This document shows positions 13,560-55,199 of a DNA stretch of 64,000 nt, piece by piece. The translations under genes were made by a program, and so were the position numbers. Under the pieces are notes generated by a model. The model ran no database searches. It had not been told where the DNA came from and saw only the letters and a list, made by a program, of their open reading frames with translations. Origin of the DNA: Terebella lapidaria (lineage: Eukaryota > Annelida > Polychaeta > Terebellida > Terebellidae); assembly GCA_949152475.1 (NCBI GenBank), contig OX424555.1, positions 12,604,868 through 12,668,867 of the forward strand. The letters are read 5' to 3'. How positions within the stretch are numbered: position 1 is the stretch's first letter; each line of letters begins with the position of its first letter.

Positions 13560-14584
13560 CTGCAAAAAGGGAACGATAAGTAGTAATACATTTCAAGGGT
13601 TGAAAGGCCTATTCTTAGAGCCTTCTCAGATCTTTTTAGTAATAGGCGACCGCTAAATATCTTATGTGCTTTATGCTAAGTTCAACGGATAAATTAGAAC
13701 GTAAAACGTAAGAAAATGAGCGGTTGGTTTAAACTAAAGTTGTACTGTTATTCCTCAGATCTACTCAAACTCATATTCGAGGAAACGTCACAATATGTTT
13801 CTGGGCGAATGAATTTCACACCCCGCGCACTGAGCCAGCTGCCGAGCGTGACCCATTTTGTATTGGGGTCAAGTCATGTTGCTCGTTTGCTCCAGATTCA
13901 AGCGAGAACCTAAACATTGGTGACAAACTTTTGTACCGAGTCGATCTACACGTCGATTCGATGCCATATCAGTGTAAAAGGTAACCTTGTTCAGTCTCGC
14001 TGATGGTTCGTCCTACATATATGTGCGGAAAAATAAACATGAAAGCCATGAAAACTCACTGGATACGTTGGTTTGAGATGGCAAAGAAGGAAATCCATGG
14101 TGGTCAATCTCCACACAGCTGTGAAAATCCAACCCGAGAAGTATAATGGATAATAATATCACAATACATGTATAGTGGACAGATATGACAATATTAGCCA
14201 TATAAAAACATATTTCACGCCTCAAATGCCGTAAGCTACTATCCATCCATGGGTAAATAATGATCGTGATGGACTCCAGCTCTGACACACATCCATACAC
14301 TCACTGCACACATTTTAGTCACACTCACGGACATGGGAAGGTTATAAGAACTACATACTTGATTCAAGACGAGTAAAATTACTACTAAGAAAAATTCTTC
14401 AAGAAAAATTCTACTATTCATGACTTTCGGACGCACCAGAATCTCGACCTGACCATGACCTGACCCCAACCATGGAAATGTTCGCGGCTAGCTGGAGGAT
14501 ACTCGCTTGTGGCATGTACATGTACTAATAATGTACTATGTAATAATGTACATTTACATAGGTGGATATATGTGTGGAACTCAC
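13560..14584 (-). other. Intron of LRR-PAN gene 1
   Basis: A 1025-bp phase-1 intron with a GTGAGT donor directly after the codon for arginine and a TTTTTGCAG acceptor. It contains no repeat that I can identify. Short open frames within it are not conserved in the intron of the paralogue. Confidence 0.8.
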
Positions 14585-15362
14585 CTCTCTGGATGAGGTC
14601 TGTGATGTTCACTGACGCCATTTCATACCGGACCGTCTCCGACATGTTGCAAGCGAACGGGTACGTCACGTGAAATGTGACATTTGCAATCATTGATGAC
14701 AGTTTGGCCCACATGAAATCCTGACTACAAGGTTGTGTGAACAACTGGGTGCCTATCTGCAGCTTTCTGTCGCTCGTGTCCATCCGGCACATGTTCGGTA
14801 GTCCGACGGCCATGAACTTGAAATTGATGTAGTAGATGTGACGGAGGGCGGCCAAAGCTTCGACGGTAATCCTTTCAATGTATGGGCTAGATATGACGAT
14901 CTTCGTGATATATTGCCCCATGTTTGTGAGCACGGGAAACTCTGTTAGCTCAGTATCCCCCATGTTGATGTACCAAAGGTTCGGTGTACCAGACGTGTCC
15001 TCGAAGGAGATGATAGGGTTCTGCTGGATGTACATTTTCTTCAAAGCTACCATTTTGCCGAGTATGGCTGCGGGAACAATGGGGATCAAATTGAAGCTAA
15101 TGTTCAGGGTCCTCAGGGTCGAAGACACGTTCACCAGGTCGGGAAATTGATTTATTTTGTTGATCGAGGCGTCGAAGATGCGAAGTTTCGGGTACGGTTC
15201 TAAATAGTCGATGACCGTGAGGTTATTGTTCTTGACGAAAAAATTTAAAATGTTGTTTCCTATGCCACTGTGTGGGAATTGCGTCAGTCCCATAGAATTG
15301 AAAGCAATTCCGTTTGCGATGCTGATGATTGCACAGCTCACGACAACAACCTTTTCGATCAT
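14585..15362 (-). CDS. LRR-PAN secreted protein 1, exon 1 (signal peptide and LRRs)
   Basis: The product starts MIEKVVVVSCAIISIANG, a clear signal peptide, and is probably secreted because no transmembrane segment follows. About six leucine-rich repeats run from residue 30 to 185, for example LRTLNISFNLIPIVP and LKKMYIQQNPIISF. A cysteine-containing, tryptophan-bearing cap follows (PCSQDFMWAKL, then FACNMS) that resembles an LRRCT. There are several N-glycosylation sequons, including NLT, NVS, NIS, NVT and NIT. The ATG has A at -3, and an in-frame TAA lies three codons upstream, fixing the start. The family role, extracellular recognition or adhesion, is inferred from architecture. I do not recognise an orthologue. 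The paralogue at 38102-40746 has the same domains and the same intron position. Confidence 0.87.
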
Positions 15363-16471: not shown

Positions 16472-17533
16472 TAAGGCATTTCGGCAGAAATGCCTTTATG
16501 GTTTTAGCAGAAAAAATAATGTTTTGTTGATTCATCCTTGAGGCTTCCTGCATATCTCAGAAACGGTGCGTCGTAGAGTGAAAAGGACGTTTTTTTTGGA
16601 CTCGTCGCCCTAGACAAACATGTCTGAGAGGGTATTATGGATGAACTTCGACTTCACCCAAATTTTTTTTTGACGAGTCAGTATTTTTTGTTTTAGTTGA
16701 TATCTCCGAAACGTTGCGTCATAGAGCGAAACAGACGTTCGGACTCGTCACTCTAGACAAACACGTTTAAAGGGTATTATGGACGAACTTTGACCTTGAC
16801 CTGATTTTTTTTTTGCTGAGTGGGCAATTTTCGTTTTTGTTGATATCTTGGGAACGGTGCGTCATAGAGCGAAACGGACTATATTTTCGGACTCGTCACC
16901 CTAGACAAACATTTTTAAGGGGTATTATGGATGAAATTTGACTTGACCCAAAATTTTTTTGACGAGACGGTATTTTTTGTTTTAGTTGATATCTCCGAAA
17001 CGGTGTGTCATAGAGCGAAACGGACGTTATTTTCAGACCTGTCACCCTAGACAAACATGTTTAAGGGGTATTATGGATGGACTTTGACCTTGACTTGAAA
17101 TTTTTTTGCCGACTCGGCATTTTTCATATTGTCATTATCTCGAAAACAGTGTGTCGTAGAGCGAAACGGATGTTATTTTCGGACTCGTCGCCATAGCCAA
17201 GCATAGCCAAGCATGGTATTAAAGATGAACTTTGACCTTGACATGATTTTTTTTTTGCCGAGTCGGCACTTTTCGTTTCGGCGATATCTCTGAAACGGTG
17301 CGTCTTGGAGTGAAACGGACGTTATTTTGGGATTCATACTCATTGAGTGTAATATTTTTTATTCATACCACTAAACAAACATAAGGCAAACATGTCTAAT
17401 TCGACATTTTTCATTTTCGTTGATATCCTAGAAACGGTGTGTCGTAGAGCCCATGGTAAACATGTTATTAAGTATTATAAATTAGTCTTAACACCGAAAT
17501 GCCTCCAAGGCATCTTTAGGCCTTGACGTCTAG
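16472..17533. mobile_element. Helentron/HINE-like non-autonomous element with seven internal repeats
   Basis: It is absent from the matching point of unit 2 (24920/24921), which gives the empty site. The left end is a hairpin, AAGGCATTT-cggcag-AAATGCCTT. The right end repeats the motif in inverse (CCGAAATGCCT), then has a small AAGGC/GCCTT stem and ends in CTAG. The core is seven copies of a unit of about 145 bp, each with GATATCTCCGAAACGGTG-like text followed by CATAGAGCGAAACGGAC (anchors 16560, 16708, 16851, 16997, 17142, 17292, 17431). Subterminal inverted repeats, a core of tandem repeats and a 3' stem-loop are the layout of HINE, DINE-1 and bivalve pearl elements. There is no coding capacity. 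Confidence 0.6.
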
Positions 17534-38346: not shown

Positions 38347-39932
38347 CTGTGGCACATGTGAGATAATAAATTAGAAGTTATTAGTATATGAATGGATTGT
38401 CGAATGGAGTGAGTCGAAACTGCGATATCATTGATAAATAATTTGAGATTGTATACGTTTCTCAGAAATTCTTTTCCCGAAGTCTGGTCTAGCGATTATG
38501 TGAACTGAACAAAACATCATATACTTGATGTGGTTTTGGTCGATTTTTTATCTACATGAAAACTGGATTAGAAACATGGTTCAGTAAATAATGACATATG
38601 TATGACATAATAAATCGACATGGTACAGATGTTCAGTATTGTTAAGGCGTAAAACAATAAGCAGAACTGTAAATGAGTATAATGTATTTTATACTTTATT
38701 TTGTCTATTGAATGAGAAATTATACAACTTGGTTCTGAAAATGTGTATTACGTGCCTAAATTGAGTTCCCAAATCAAGATTCGCATCATTTTTCCTAAAA
38801 GCGGCCCGCCTTTTGGGCGAGTTCTATACACAGTCTGGTGACGTCATTGGTATTTGTCTAGATACTGTGGCAACCGGCAATGTAGACTGGCCGATCATTC
38901 TCTGTTTTCATGCACGATCAACGGCAATTTCACGAAACTTGACTAGCAGGAAAACTCTCCCGTACGAAAAAAAGTATAATATCTTATCAAGATGCTGATA
39001 ATATATTATCAGATTTGGTCTTATGTATTTCTGATATTATATAGCTGGTTTTGAAAACGATGTAGGCCTAATAGTTATCAATTCAGACTGATTCCGCCTA
39101 CGTTTGATGGTAATACGGTACTGAGCATGACGTCAGTGTAGATGCTTGGAAATAAGTTTTCGCTTGTTGTATTTCAAGGAAAATATATCTCATTATACGA
39201 AAACGATGGAATATATATGCCACCAACTCCATTTTCATATACTATCGGTAAATTTATAGCAGCTGTCTAATCGTGTCAACTGTATCCATGTATCAACTGT
39301 TTGGGTCGTAACGTTACTATTTATGGCACATCAAAATTATCGCCCGGCTACCTGATAGGAATTATGACGTTGACGGCCATTTATTATGATAGAATAGAAG
39401 CTTTGATAGAATCGTTTCTCAGAACCATTCTCCTTGCCTTTTATCGCATGAACACTTAATCATGTAGACCAAAGCGGCCACCCGAGATGTTATGATGGAT
39501 CATGATACGTTGTCTGTCGTACACAACATTCAACCTGGCTTCTAATGTGAAAATATATGGGTCTTGGTAAAAAAAAAATTTAACTTTAATGAACATTGAT
39601 GTGTTTTGAAGAGTAAATCGACCCAAAGATCGAGGCAACACTTCCCAAAATCCAAAAGATCAAGAACGACATCCGGAAAAGAAAAGTGTAGGGTACCTAA
39701 CAACTGTTTGTCTCATAGTTATTTTCTGTGTTTTCTTTCTTGTGTTTCTATGTTTTATTTCACAACGGCACAAAAATTAAATCAATGACATTAATTTGAG
39801 ATTGAGATTGACCATGGCAAGTTGTAACCCCGTGATGTACACAGTGTTCACGTATATTCTGTACGTGTATACAAAGTTCGTATATCCGTGACAATGCATA
39901 GGCCAAACTACTCACTGAGAACAACAACTTAC
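38347..39932 (-). other. Intron of LRR-PAN gene 2
   Basis: A 1586-bp phase-1 intron with a GTAAGT donor and CACAG acceptor. It shows no recognisable similarity to the intron of gene 1. Open frames inside, such as 38813-38998, look like chance. Confidence 0.8.
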
Positions 39933-40746
39933 CTCGTTCCAGTAACTCGTCGATCTCCACGCCATTGAGCTGGGCATTAGCCCCACTGGACAGCGTACAC
40001 TGGGGAGGATATGTGGCGTGCCAGGTGATGTTGGCCGTCAGACTGGCCATCCTCGCCCATACCAGCTCCTGGTTACAGACGAAACCGTTGTTGTCAAAGG
40101 CCAGTTTCAGCGTTTGTGTCGGCAGCTGTGCAGTGTTCACCCGACACAGGTTCCCGATACTCAACTGCATGCCCTTGAGGCTAATGTATCTCAGCGATGG
40201 CAGGGAGTTGAGATCGTCGACTGAAACACTCGTGAAAGGTCCAGAAATTACTAGAGTCTTCAATGTTTTCCCGAGGTTGGTGAGAGTAGGAAATCTGGGA
40301 AACAAAGTGTCTTCGATACTGAGGAAGTAGAGAGTGTTGGAGGGTCCAGGGACGTCTGGGATTGCCACGAGGGGGTTGTCCTGTATGTACAGCTTCTCCA
40401 GAACTATCAGTTGATCCAGGAGATCCGGAGGGCTGATCACTGTGATCTGGTTCTCGTAAAGATAGAGTATCCTCAGCGTGGAGCTGACGTTCTGTAAGTC
40501 CGGGAATGTTATCAACAGGTTACCGTTTGCGTGGAACTCATCCAGTACCGGGAACGGCTCCACAAAGTCTATATCGGTGATTGAATTTCTCGCAACCGAT
40601 ATCTTAGTCGCGTCATTACCAAATATTCCATGAGGAAATGTAGTATAACCGCGGTCTGTTTCGGTGTATTCGGTGCACAACGACCGTCTAGTATATATTA
40701 TAATTAGGCAGCCAGTCAAAACGGTCTTCAGTAGCTTCGTTTCCAT
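39933..40746 (-). CDS. LRR-PAN secreted protein 2, exon 1 (signal peptide and LRRs)
   Basis: The chosen ATG (40744-40746, METKLLKTVLTGCLIIIY) has A at -3 and G at +4, and opens a signal peptide; upstream in-frame sequence is a CA repeat. About six leucine-rich repeats follow between residues 45 and 200 (LRILYLYENQITVISP, LEKLYIQDNPLVAIP, LRYISLKGMQLSIG), then an LRRCT-like cap (FVCNQELVWARM, PPQCTLSS). There is no transmembrane segment, so the protein is probably secreted. Matching landmarks with gene 1 include PDLxNVSSTLRxL, the W-containing cap and the exon end at a glycine split by the intron. I infer a recognition or matrix role from domains only. Confidence 0.87.
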
Positions 40747-40830
40747 GGTCTCACACACACACACAGGTGTCGGTTTTAGTTATGGATCACGAAGATTTAT
40801 GATTCCTATATTCTAGGTTTTCGTCTGATG

Positions 40831-50009: not shown

Positions 50010-50051
50010 AGTTCCTACGGAAGCGTATTACCGCCATGCAAAAAAAAAATT

Positions 50052-50235
50052 ATCTCGCCGTGGCGAGTTACTGTCTCGCCGTGGCGAGTTACTGTCTCGC
50101 CGTGGCGAGTTACTATCTCGCCTTGGCGAGTTAGTTATCTCGCCGTGGCGAGTTACTATCTCGCCTTGGCGAGTTAGTTATCTCGCCGTGGCGAGTTACT
50201 ATCTTGCCGTGGCGAGTTAGCTATCTCGTCGTCAG
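50052..50235. repeat. Left palindrome array, core CTCGCC-NN-GGCGAG
   Basis: Eight good units and one degraded unit at 21 to 22 bp spacing. The core is CTCGCC, a variable central dinucleotide (GT or TT), then GGCGAG; linkers are TTACTGT, TTACTAT or TTAGTTAT. Each core can form a 6-bp hairpin. Open frames across it are a consequence of the 21-bp period. Confidence 0.85.
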
Positions 50236-51148
50236 TGTGTCATTGTATTCCCCCAACGTAGGTCGACAGATACTATGGATTCACCCAACCCAAAATATTT
50301 ATTTATGTAGAGCGTTCTACAGGTTCCATTTCTCATCCGATTTTGATGATTGTTGCATACACATTTGATGTACATGTATACACCTATCGATTTTGTCTAA
50401 TGAGTTGATGATGAAATGATGATGAAAGCAGCCCTTTTGACACGCATGGCTTGTATGCGCTCTAGGAATGACAATTTCCATTGAATCGCTCTGATTGTGA
50501 ACGAGTTGGTTGAGCAATGCCTAGACACGACGACTGACGTTTTCCAGAAATATTGAATATAAATCCATGTGGATGGAGAAAAAAAGTAACTCGACGAAAA
50601 TGTCGAATATCGACTCCCCTCTCCCAAAGTGTGTGTTTGAGATAACTATAGAGTATAGTGCAAAATCTCACCCGGTCGCTCCTGACAAATTGAGATCGGG
50701 TTGCGCATTCAAATACGGAACAACACGAATTACGCCTAAAATGCCTTACGTTGGTATGAGATACCCCATTTATGCACTCAAGTTATATGTGTGCCACTAA
50801 CTCAGTACTGGAACACTAAATCAGGAGTATTCTTTCCAGGTCACTGATTTTTTGGTATCTATAATCTAGTTGCAGCTTTCACAATGTCGCTCTGATGAAA
50901 TCTGTGACTATTCTTTTCTGCAACAAGATACATATACACTCTTAGAAAAACATGTTCCAATGGGTTCTCTAACGAACCTCAACTCGAAACCACGGAACAG
51001 CAACATACGTAAAAGTGAACGCAACGTATATACAGGGTGGGTCCCACCTCACAGGGTGACGACACCATGCACGGCTACCACGGGCTCGAGGTGGTAACCC
51101 TCACATCTCGTCCATATTTAGTCCATATGGTAGAAACAGGTAAAGGTG

Positions 51149-51760
51149 TTATGGGATTGCCATGAGCATCACTTGATTGAGGGGAACACATCCCATATGA
51201 GCGAAGGAGGCCGCCATGGCTCTAACGTCATGGGCACTCACCTTAAACGAACAATTGGAGTCCTGCTCGGCCAGGTCATAACAAGTTTGGATACACTTTT
51301 GAATCCAGGACGAGTAGGAGGCGGAACGTATGTCTCGGTGGACTGATGTGATACGAACAACAGACGTTTGCCAGCACGAAGACATTTTGTTCATTTAAGT
51401 TACAAGCGCAAAGCCCGCACCGGGCATAGAAAACATTCTTTCTCCAGATTCGGGCCTAAGGACGAAGCCAAGGCAGGGATCGGGAAGGCCAACGGTGGAG
51501 AAGAGGCAAGAAGAGGCAAGATGACCTGCAAGGAAACATTGAGACCATCCTCCCACCACAAAACTTTGGGAAGATCCAACGGATTCCTCCCCTGTGACGC
51601 CCAGCAGGACTTCCAGGTGAGCAACTTCAATGGGGACGAGGACTTTGGTTCGGCATGAGCTGACCCCAAACCCATGAGCCCTGCCGCGTTCCATGGATGG
51701 ACAAGGTCTTCATTTGTCTCAGCAGTGTCCCCTGTAGGCTCTCCCACGTTCTCAGGCTGG
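51149..51760 (-). mobile_element. DIRS-like retroelement fossil, tyrosine recombinase fragment
   Basis: The minus strand contains KVSAHDVRAMAASFAHMG, the AH-x-x-R box of a tyrosine recombinase, with CPVRALRL and SPLKLLTWKSC-type text upstream, an order typical of the integrase of DIRS-type elements in aquatic animals. It is broken and lies inside the TACGGA-ended element 50016-52937. No reverse transcriptase or terminal repeats of its own were seen. Confidence 0.6.
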
Positions 51761-51829
51761 ATAAGGTCTTCACTTGTCTCAGTATTTTACCGATTTATGT
51801 GTATAAAAAAAAAATACATCTATTTTCTG

Positions 51830-52330
51830 AACAATAGAGCTTTCGAAGGTTCAATATGAAATTGATGTGTTTCAAACAACTTATTTTGAACCATAGGAGA
51901 TTCTTTGGAGAAATTTTGATGAAAAAATGGGAAGGTTTTCTGAAGAACCCTGAAATGTTCTATTTAGAAACTTGATTTGAACCACTTGGAGGTTCTTTAC
52001 CTAACCTGCAAAGAACATGAAATGGGTCAATATTGAACTGATTATTTTTCTGGAGGGAAACATATTTAAATCAGGAAGAGTTCTTCAAATAATTCAAAGG
52101 TTATTTGGTGGTACTTTGAAGTACCCACAAAAGCTTCATTTCACTGGTTGTGAAAGAACCCAGTTTGAACCTTTACAAGAACCTCATCTCATAATTCCAA
52201 ATTTTCTTTACAAAGAACCTTTGAGGTTCCACGAAAAAATTGCCGCACAAAGAACCTTTCAAAAATGTTCTAAATAAAACTTTTGAGGTTCCACATATGT
52301 ATAAGCTCAAAGAACCGTAAAACATTCTAT
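51830..52330. repeat. Foldback-type repeat rich in AAAGAACC / GGTTCTTT
   Basis: At least eight AGAACC or GGTTCTTT blocks occur in both orientations, for example AAAGAACCTTTGAGGTTCC near 52216. CACTCTTAGAAAAACATGTTCC near 50938 looks like the other end of the same family. It is a non-coding transposon remnant inside 50016-52937. Confidence 0.5.
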
Positions 52331-52943
52331 CCAGAACCTGTTTGTCTACCTATACTCTCGTTATTACTTTACAAATATAAACATAATGATTAACATTGAA
52401 ATGAGCACATCGCAATTAAATTGTACACGTTTTATTGTACGCGCAATTCCGTCCATTAATTTTGGCTAGAGATGGCCACTTTGTAAAAATTTCGCCTGAA
52501 GGCTGAATGCTTCATGATAGAGTCTGGATTTGTATTAATAGAATTAGAGTTAGGACAGGATAGGAATTTGTCCTATTCTTTCTTAAATTGATCCAATTTA
52601 GCGATGTCAGGTGTAGTGCATCCAGCAGACATCGAGTGCTCAAAAAAAGTTATATTATTTATATCATATTATAGCTAGACCAAATGGCGCAGATTGGCCA
52701 TAAGATACCCTTGAGAAGCTTTTATAAGTTCGTATTATGGGCTCATATGCTAAACATTTAGGAAGTCATAATTATATGAAGGGCTCATTTTTTAGTAACC
52801 TTGAAATTGATCTCAGGTGACGTTGGGGGCTACGTCATGATGCTATTGAAGACAGAATAGTAACTCGCCACGGCAAGATAGTAACTCGTCATGGCGAGAT
52901 AAAAAAAATTTTTGCATGGCGGTAATACGCTTCCGTAAGTTCC

Positions 52944-54575
52944 ACATATAGGTCTATCCATAAAAATATTTTACGGCGTAATATTGTACTTCCAGGGACT
53001 GGCTTGGCCACGTTGTCAATTTTGCTGATTTTGCTTGAATTCACAATAAAGTATTTCACATAGTAAGTATTAATACATTTTAGTTTCTGTGAGTGCGTTT
53101 ATGAAGCATAAATATTCAAATTCGTTCATAGCACAGAAACATAGTTTATTCAAACCTTTCAAAAATATCTGAGGCAATAATCAGTCGATCGTTCTAATTG
53201 TCAATTATTGTGATGTGGAAATTCCAATGAATTTCTGATGATTTACGTCTACATGTGAAGCCGAACGATTGCAATGTTCCTAATTTTGCAGTAAAATTTG
53301 GCTAGACAGTTTGTCGCCCGTAAGTAACGCAAAATAACGCGACGTTCTGAATATCGCTTCTGTGTTCTACTACTCCTGCATGGTCGTGGCTAGTTTCTAA
53401 CAACTGTCATAATAAACCAGGTAGAAGTATTTCTGGCCATCACGGCCCATCAAATATTCCTTCACCAAATATACGTCAGAATGCTTCCAGGAGAACGCAA
53501 ATTCGAAAATTTCCTTGGGGGGCTTACAGCGCCCCCAAGTCCCCAGCTGCACGAAGCTTCACTCGCTGCGCTCGCTCCCATTCTAAATAACGTTACTTAT
53601 TTAGCGTACTTGTATGCGATTTCAAATCCTGGCTACGCGCCTGATATCAGTATACTGGTATAAATTATTTTTCTAAGTTACCGTGCTCATGGTTCGTAAC
53701 ATTTTCTATCACCATATAGTATTTCACTGTATCGGCATACCTAGAAGGATTTAATTAGGCCTACATGCATTGGAATCTTCATGGGAACTTTTGTGTTGTA
53801 TGTGAGTTATGTTACTCTTGAATACCTAGGGCCTCTTCGATCTGGAAAAGGTAGATGGCATGCCTACCAAGAAGTCGGAATATGGTTTTGAATCGAATGT
53901 GTTCTGCCATTTTCAGCAGTCAATTAAAATAAGAAAATGATGTGGTATTGCGTAAATATTCATCATACACTACAAATTTCCAAAAAGGTATTGACTCTGC
54001 GCCTAAGATATACATTCTGTGATCACAAGGTACATCTGATGACTGGTACATTCCCATATTTCGACGAGAAATGAGGGAGCACCAATTCGACCGCCATTTG
54101 CAAATCTGCCCCGCGCCATATTGCAAAACTCAGAAGATCTACCGTAAACCAGCCTCCGAGCTGGTAGGGCGGCAGAGTCTTCCTCTTCCAGAATATCGTC
54201 TTCCGTGTGAATCGAAGGGAAAATTCTGGTAAACTGGAATAGGAAGAGGCGAATCGAACAGGCCCTTAGTCTGCGCACGACGGCCAAGGTGTTTTTTTTT
54301 CCTTTCATATGGAAGTCACGTATGCAGATTTTAGTGTGGTGACCTTGAGTGTGACCTTTGACACTATTAAATGGTAAAAAGAAGATAATTTTAGACGAAG
54401 ACAAACCACCAATCTTGAACATTGTCGGCTTGACACATTCCACGGTTACACTTTTTTATGCTGCTTGGTGTATAGTAGATGTTTCCGTATTCACGTAAGT
54501 ACTTCATCCTAAAATGTACATGTATGGAAATGCTGAAACGACATCAAACTGAGTAATTCCGTAGTGGCCTAGATT
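52944..54575. other. Gene-free stretch
   Basis: The only named structure is a remnant at 53510-53650 with GGGGGCTTACAGCGCCCCC and CTCGCTGCGCTCGCTCCC, which looks like the tail of a dispersed repeat. Open frames at 53920-54443 on the minus strand have no domain. Confidence 0.35.
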
Positions 54576-54581
54576 CGATCA

Positions 54582-55193
54582 TACGGAGCCCCTGAGGTGA
54601 CATACCAGATATATTTATTAATCCGTGCGCACGAATTAGTAAACCGTGGCCACGAATTGGTAAACTGTGGCCACGAATTAGTAAACCGTGGCCACGAATT
54701 GGTAAACTGTGGCCACGAATTAGTAAACCGTGCGCACGAATTAGTAAACCGTGCGCACGAATTAGTAAACCGTGCGCACGAATTAGTAAACCGTGGGGGC
54801 ACGAATTGGTAAACCGTGCGCACGGATTACCTTAACTAATCTGTGGGCATGATTTAACAATCCGTGGACACGATTTAATAATTTGTGGGCACGATTTAAC
54901 AATTCGTGCGCACGATTTAACAATTCGTGCGCACGAATTAGTATTTCGTGGCCACAGATTGGTATAACTAATCCGTGGGCACGATTTACCAATTCGTGGG
55001 CACGAATTAGTATTTCGTGCCCACGAATTAGTAAATCGTGCCCACGGATTGTTAATTCGTGGCCACGAATTGTTAAATTGTGCGCACGGTTTGGTAATTC
55101 GTGCGCACGGTTTGGTAAGCCGTGCGCACGGATTGGTAAACCGTGTGCACGGATCAATAAATATTTTCGGTATGTCACCTCAGGGGCTCCGTA
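54582..55193. mobile_element. TACGGA-ended transposon made almost wholly of palindrome units, 612 bp
   Basis: The ends TACGGAGCCCCTGAGGTGAC and its complement are identical for 25 bp and similar for about 50. CGATCA flanks both sides (54576-54581 and 55194-55199). Between the ends are about 25 units at 21-bp spacing. Each has a 10-bp core CGTG-NN-CACG and an 11-bp AT-rich linker of AATTAGTAAAC type. The central dinucleotide is CG, GC, GG or CC, in blocks. The array is open in several frames and reads as heptapeptide repeats such as HELVNRA, but nothing suggests that it is translated. Non-autonomous; the superfamily could be IS3EU, known for 6-bp duplications, but I cannot confirm this. Confidence 0.8.
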
Positions 55194-55199
55194 CGATCA

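Follow-up and report, generated by a model that had tools for sequence, protein, structure and literature searches.

Several families of IS3EU-like DNA transposons in the genome of the polychaete Terebella lapidaria (GCA_949152475.1) share one design of their ends, in which a terminal inverted repeat (TIR) is followed inwards by a family-specific array of palindromes, which mostly succeed each other at a distance of two or three helical turns and are inverted between the two ends. Two elements of this design, A and B, are located in the stretch analyzed here, which comprises 64,000 nucleotides of contig OX424555.1 (positions 12,604,868 to 12,668,867, forward strand) and is called the window in the following. 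The arrays are, by a judgement slightly better than even, rows of helically phased putative binding sites for transposase dimers.

Elements A and B in the window and in the genome

Element A (50016..52937), 2922 bp long, is a non-autonomous IS3EU-like transposon, whose longest stop-to-stop frame comprises 128 amino acids; locus L046 contains this copy and its flanks. It lies between exact copies of the target duplication AGTTCC (left 50010..50015, right 52938..52943). The TIRs of 29 bp are perfect, the left one (50016..50044, + strand, TACGGAAGCGTATTACCGCCATGCAAAAA, 29 nt) being 100% complementary to the right one (52909..52937, − strand). The left array (50051..50232, + strand) consists of 8 units with a period of 21-22 bp and the core CTCGCCGTGGCGAG, and the right array (52857..52901, − strand) consists of 2 units, which are inverted with respect to the left array.

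Element B (54582..55193), likewise a non-autonomous IS3EU-like transposon, has a length of 612 bp and is composed almost entirely of TIR, array and TIR. Its target duplication CGATCA is exact as well (left copy 54576..54581, right copy 55194..55199), and its TIRs are perfect over 25 bp (left 54582..54606, + strand, TACGGAGCCCCTGAGGTGACATACC; right 55169..55193, − strand). The array between them (54615..55161) has a main period of 21 bp, the core CGTGNNCACG and the family consensus unit TAATTCGTGCGCACGAATTA.

Both elements had been described in an earlier reading of the same DNA, made without database searches (the sequence-only reading). The boundaries, the TACGGA/TCCGTA termini and the 6-bp duplications given there are all exact in the window. 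The inner sequences differ as had been claimed, with the array motif CTCGCC(R)TGGCGAG in A versus CGTGNNCACG in B, and the palindrome spacing of about 21 bp agrees with the period of 21 which Tandem Repeats Finder lists for each of the two arrays. The placement of the arrays directly inside the ends is correct in that they lie inside the TIRs, but it needs to be made more precise, as the center of the first palindrome is about 46-47 bp away from the terminus.

The window was scanned, without regard to palindrome arrays, for elements with TA..TA termini, a length of 150-9000 bp, TIRs that agree over 14 bp with at most 2 mismatches, and a 6-bp duplication free of mismatches. This array-blind scan returned only A and B, and none were found in five block-shuffled windows. 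A loose scan for chains of palindromes was discarded as uninformative, since it gave 21 chains in the window versus 85 in 10 shuffled windows.

In the genome (762 Mb, 438 contigs), the outermost 23 nt have 172 matches for the A TIR and 881 matches for the B TIR with at most two mismatches, whereas the reversed patterns used as control have none. From the listed TIR pairs, 40 A loci and 20 B loci were picked, and the innermost TIR pairs were evaluated. The 6-bp duplication is exact in 34 of 39 A pairs, with one mismatch in 2 and two or more in 3, and it is exact in 17 of 23 B pairs, with one mismatch in 3 and three or more in 3. Unrelated left and right flanks, as a control, matched exactly in 3 of 1482 combinations for A and 0 of 506 for B. 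The pairing rule left out L026, whose sole pair matches at 2 of 6 positions owing to the next A copy, which abuts the right end, as well as the outer pair of L056. L031 was scored as a mismatch, though its duplication TATTCG reappears one base further outward, and the one-mismatch B loci L071 and L072 have identical flanks and are probably one duplicated place. Arrays with at least two units at each end are present in 37 of the 39 A copies, so that duplications and arrays recur in other copies; their absence there would have spoken against the sequence-only reading.

The A elements in the 40 loci span 0.4-8 kb. In L027 and L056 an A copy is inserted in the TIR of another A copy; the duplications, CTTCCG and CGCTTC, are TIR sequence and the pairs abut, which makes self-targeting by A possible.

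Further families and transposase-bearing elements

Two further families, C and D, were found outside the window by the same array-blind scan; its three other additional hits are variants of A or B. The C element (L010:1874-2468) starts with TAYGGAAGCCC, has the duplication GTCGAA, exact by the scan rule, and repeats the palindrome TTCCACGTTCGAACGTGGAA at intervals of 30-32 bp; with up to 3 mismatches, the C TIR matches the genome at 1059 places. The D element is a miniature (L014:2497-3193), which starts with TACGGTGGCTGATATATGCC, has the duplication TGAAAC, again exact by the scan rule, and repeats the unit ATTAAATACGCGTATTTAAT every 20 bp.

Family E was picked out by its array and is therefore not independent evidence. 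The copy that defines it (L014:1-1211) has the TIR TACGGAAGCCCAGATAGG at its right end, its left terminus lies just beyond the locus, and its palindrome TTCGCCNNGGCGAA recurs every 21 bp. The E TIR has 330 genome matches (up to 3 mismatches), and 33 neighboring TIR pairs picked among the first 100 listed places delimit copies of 189-1993 bp. The shortest of these (G000:C1:15184866-15185054), with 189 bp between the outer TIR ends, is possibly a minimal element of TIR, array and TIR.

Because A and B carry no transposase, the genome was searched with the profile PF24764 (rva_4, integrase core), which has at least 133 matches in this genome and none in 14 control genomes. Locus L085, which was selected solely for its transposase frame of 421 amino acids, contains the D TIR and 12 D-type units 5′ of the gene. 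When L085 was compared with the genome, the sharp start of homology fell at the D TIR. Five autonomous D copies were identified, each with a transposase match inside and matches to TIR plus array at both ends in inverse orientation. Three of them measure 10.35 kb (C12), 10.30 kb (C12) and 10.32 kb (C1), and the other two about 9.8 kb (C23) and about 11.2 kb (C2, near end split by an insertion). They are 97-100% identical to L085 over the approximately 3.3 kb compared and each has the open frame of 421 amino acids, and the autonomous D family is apparently intact. The far end, read in one copy, shows 18 units in the stretch read and the duplication AGAACC, and two more copies have GACATA and CTATGG, respectively, on both sides. 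In the copy G000:C12:16210198-16220545 (10.35 kb), about 6.5 kb between the parts read could house further genes.

Family F, with a frame of 385 amino acids, has an array of 20-21 bp units between the TACAGTGGC terminus and the gene. Its three copies (8.80, 8.72, and 9.73 kb) contain a transposase match inside and inverted matches to TIR plus array at both ends. For F one end was read as sequence and the other was matched by search, while A, B, C, D and one E copy were read as sequence. The two F copies that were checked are flanked on either side by TTTAAG and GCTCAC, respectively, which brings the exact 6-bp duplications in autonomous elements checked at both ends to five of five (D 3/3, F 2/2). 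The TIRs of D and F are related by eye and their palindromes differ.

Two other transposase families were sampled. In G (418-amino-acid frame) six 31-bp units with 75% identity at lag 31 are located upstream of the gene, and AAGACGTCTT is perfect in two of them; H has a frame of 425 amino acids. Among these four families, TIR and array are therefore present in two (D and F) and probable in G.

The D transposase matches the PF24764 integrase core at residues 152-332. It has a weak match to Clr5 in its N-terminal part (E-value 0.0088, below the cut-off) and a weak match to rve, no THAP domain at E-values up to 0.1, and no sequence match to solved structures at E-values up to 1. In their N-terminal regions, the transposases of D, F, G and H can be aligned over a stretch which, by our own reading and the weak Clr5 match, resembles a helix-turn-helix, and the identity to D is 47% for F (first exon only), 36% for G and 32% for H.

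Longer copies with a transposase, which the sequence-only reading had suggested looking for, thus exist in D (five) and F (three) with the same TIR-plus-array design, and none of them is linked to A or B. For A, B, C and E no PF24764 match is close by eye among the first 100 listed TIR places per pattern. An autonomous A copy was also sought within the 40 A loci and rejected, as their stop-to-stop frames do not exceed 305 amino acids and, by eye, no listed PF24764 match falls inside them; two A frames tested against Pfam, the one of 305 amino acids included, gave no match. Some long A copies contain foreign-looking fragments (L026:2081-2572, − strand; L029:3261-4175, + strand). One fragment in a long A copy includes an HDVRAMAASL stretch without a Pfam match, which we take to resemble tyrosine recombinases, and another resembles, by eye, a stretch which in L089 lies upstream of the transposase of family H.

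Array geometry and the reading of the palindromes

Intervals were counted between neighboring palindromes up to 75 bp apart, using family-specific cores. They are 21 or 22 bp in 811 of 813 cases in A, 21 bp in 381 of 449 in B, 30-32 bp in 10 of 11 in C, 20 or 21 bp in 42 of 46 in D, 21 bp in 38 of 44 in E and 20 or 21 bp in all 23 in F. With a helical turn of 10.5 bp, each main period deviates by no more than about one base from two or three turns. The center of the first palindrome is 46 or 47 bp away from the terminus in 36 of 40 left and 37 of 40 right ends of A, and 47 bp away in 17 of 20 left and all 20 right ends of B; the distance is about 46 bp in E, 70-73 bp in C, 78-98 bp in D and 87 bp in F.

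These data bear on the possibility that the arrays are passive, i.e., that a short palindrome next to the TIR was expanded by slippage or unequal crossing-over and is a functionless hitch-hiker, as minisatellites inside transposons often are. The highly variable unit number in A and the two A copies that have no unit or a single one at one of their ends would fit this, as would the size range of the E copies, which plausibly arises from array length. Furthermore, tandem arrays are known from other mobile elements, e.g., the oyster Helentrons (as far as covered by the available text of PMC7492417). Passive expansion leaves unexplained, however, why units are palindromic across families of different sequence, why main periods are confined to 20-22 or 30-32 bp, why autonomous elements have inverse arrays at both ends and why the offset from the terminus is nearly constant in A and B, and we regard it as rather unlikely. 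The sequence-only reading had proposed that the array is a functional part of the element, and its recurrence with different palindromes in A to F, two of which carry a transposase, together with the restricted main period and the near-constant end distance in A and B, speaks for a regular element part.

As the family cores were chosen after the arrays had been seen, the test for palindromes was confined to positions outside the cores. Of the mirrored pairs outside the collecting seed, 19 of 23 match, compared with 5.75 expected. The consensus unit is a perfect 20-bp palindrome in B, C and D, and 8 of 10 mirrored pairs match in A. In the B half-sites CGTG/CACG, TG and CA occur at 0.99 and the central 2 bp vary, a conservation which is partly imposed, since the seed allowed two mismatches in the core.

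Palindromes of this kind may also act through secondary structure, either as fold-back hairpins for replication or end processing or as transcripts forming double-stranded RNA. Folded as a single strand, B forms one very long hairpin (−247 kcal/mol versus a mean of −89 kcal/mol in 20 shuffles), and the D end has a better fold than every one of 100 shuffles (z −9.3). Such folding comes with any run of palindromes, and the giant hairpin of B is an unavoidable outcome of the palindrome design. Changes in the arms are more informative, and double changes were counted in distinct units. They amount to 13 (5 complementary) versus 6.7 expected in A, 1 (complementary) versus 2.7 in C, 2 (both complementary) versus 7.3 in D, and none in E and F versus 0.1 and 0.3, so that arm changes are mostly uncompensated in these five families. 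B is mixed. It has 117 double changes, 101 of them complementary, versus 90.2 expected, and when every mirrored position was compared with 1000 shuffles, complementarity exceeded chance at the central pair (z 3.6) and at one pair in the arms (z 2.0), was near chance at five of the ten mirrored positions and fell below it at three flanking ones (z −2.3, −4.5, −5.0). Little compensatory change in five of six families favors independently recognized half-sites over conserved stems, the central pair of B excepted. We consider a role through secondary structure improbable. Of the functions offered by the sequence-only reading, transposase binding would be favored, and hairpin processing is disfavored.

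The consensus units of A to F contain CpGs. Changes at these sites are mostly to TG or CA in A (475 of 499), the outer B sites (195 of 208), D (39 of 41) and C (4 of 6). The central site of B departs from this pattern with 52 of 335, as do E with 1 of 10 and F with 0 of 1. At non-CpG C/G sites of A, 27 transitions and 19 other changes occur in 4495. The decay to TG/CA hints at methylation, with the reservation that the units of an array are not independent. It would suit a regulatory role, in which the arrays are promoter or operator repeats or CpG-methylation-sensitive switches and have no direct part in end recognition, and the position of the D and F arrays between TIR and transposase gene would suit it as well. 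Such a role does not account for the arrays at the far end, nor for those in elements that offer hardly any or no space for a gene (B and the C and E copies read), and the CpG pattern, which is expected of any methylated repeat, is missing at the central B site, in E and in F. We therefore judge a purely regulatory function to be improbable.

Binding by the transposase remains the reading we favor. Each palindrome would bind the element's own transposase as a dimer, through the helix-turn-helix-like N-terminal region of the protein. With the sites on one face of the helix, loading of the transposase could be cooperative and proceed from the array to the terminus, and this loading might provide specific and avid recognition of the end and help to pair the two ends before cleavage. 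Non-autonomous copies would keep TIR and array because the transposase needs both to find the element, and in D and F the array between TIR and gene could double as an operator. Support comes from the array-blind recovery of C and D and from the D element fetched for its transposase alone, which had the TIR and array of the D miniature at both ends.

Several observations weigh against this reading. The unit number in A arrays varies from 4 to 26 on the left and from 0 to 14 on the right, and L045 (no unit at the right end) and L058 (one unit) have exact duplications, that of L045 being the low-complexity ATATAT; a loss of the array after insertion is possible in both, and together with the variable number they speak against a long array being strictly required. 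The minority intervals of B are 27 bp (21 cases), 48 bp (16) and 42 bp (15), of which 27 bp is off phase. The first-palindrome distances differ among A/B/E, C, D and F, so there is no single universal offset. In the consensus units of E and F only 6 and 7 of 10 mirrored pairs match, and the arm changes of B exceed expectation as described above. G has weak palindromes, as its 3 perfect 10-mers over 200 bp compare with a mean of 0.21 and a maximum of 4 in shuffles, and H shows no array within about 1.1 kb upstream of its gene, a stretch which ends short of the element ends. A transposase was found for none of A, B, C and E, the equation of PF24764 with the IS3EU transposase is our presumption, and all data come from one genome.

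Going further, the end may be regarded as an IS3EU-type "address strip", a tunable row of phased dimer sites whose palindrome co-evolves with the DNA-binding domain of the transposase, each family reading no strip but its own. New families would then arise by a swap of the palindrome while TIR and catalytic core stay alike, as in D versus F. We offer this extension tentatively and think it somewhat less likely than its opposite. To our knowledge, few studies on IS3EU have addressed how the integrase-like transposases of eukaryotes find their ends. A repeated palindrome which is specific to the family and spaced by two or three helical turns would be a ready candidate recognition site, and the D family is at hand for testing it. 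For annotators, the array-plus-TIR design is a recognizable signature, and arrays of this kind could account for the origin of some dispersed short palindromic tandem repeats.

Additional repeats and frames are present in the window. A short 21-bp array at 1378-1445 (3.3 copies, palindrome CATACGTATG) has no TACGG termini nearby by eye and is perhaps a decayed element end. A 146-bp unit is repeated in tandem at 16552-17332 (5.3 copies), and open frames at 14418-15362 and 39760-40764 (both − strand) match leucine-rich repeats, the first just under the Pfam cut-offs.

Superfamily assignment and known systems

IS3EU elements have TA..TA termini and usually 6-bp duplications (PMC10045372), and the ends of fungal TET+ IS3EU elements read TAYGG..CCRTA (PMC12730594), as given in the available parts of both papers. 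A and B resemble IS3EU (listed in Repbase, with GingerRoot) in TIRs, termini and 6-bp duplications, so that the IS3EU lead of the sequence-only reading fits termini and duplication length. TACGG is found at both ends of A, B and D, C has TACGG and TATGG, and E has TACGG at its one complete end. The F termini, TACAG or TACGG, fit TA..TA and are slightly off TAYGG. An integrase-like DDD/E transposase is typical of the superfamily (PMC10045372, PMC12730594). The D and F elements carry PF24764, the "Integrase core domain", and their transposases may be of this type. The alpha-kinase of fungal TET+ IS3EU families is absent from the D and F elements, including the middle of about 6.5 kb in D; its single match in the genome lies outside them. 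From the termini and the transposase-bearing elements of the same design, we infer that A and B are non-autonomous IS3EU cut-and-paste DNA transposons.

Palindromic or tandem end arrays are not described for IS3EU in the available text of PMC10045372 and PMC12730594, nor in the literature searched, which did not extend to the GingerRoot paper and Repbase Reports, so that a prior mention is possible. Styx of Zymoseptoria is related to IS3EU, has a length of 8.2 kb and carries an IS3EU-type transposase (PMC10853768). It is like D and F a large element with room for further genes (8.2 kb versus 8.7-11.2 kb here), but no palindromic end array is seen in the available text on it, and a 32-bp tandem repeat flanks an insertion in one subfamily (PMC10853768).

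The present arrays invite comparison with elements of other groups. Multiple transposase sites inside both ends are known from the subterminal motifs of the plant elements CACTA/Spm and Ac and from the ends of bacterial Mu and Tn7. Mu and Tn7 have integrase-fold transposases and site repeats of roughly 22 bp. These systems differ from the arrays described here in having few sites and no palindromic arrays, and they belong to other transposase families (CACTA, hAT) or are bacterial. If the address strip exists, eukaryotes would have in it a counterpart to the ends with multiple sites in integrase-fold bacterial transposons. Foldback elements have 9-bp duplications and units of 10, 20 and 31 bp, and a literature search on these units found no paper.

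Galileo is the closest tested precedent. It differs in its transposase, which belongs to the P superfamily and has a THAP domain, whereas the related family D transposase has none and A and B carry no transposase at all, and the word "palindrom" is absent from the main text of the paper (PMC3688188). Galileo and Foldback share with the elements described here long TIRs built of tandem repeats, the arrays here being inverted at both ends. In Galileo, according to the available text, these repeats hold transposase binding sites, as shown by footprinting and electrophoretic mobility shift assays, the most proximal of which is located about 70 bp from the end (PMC3688188).

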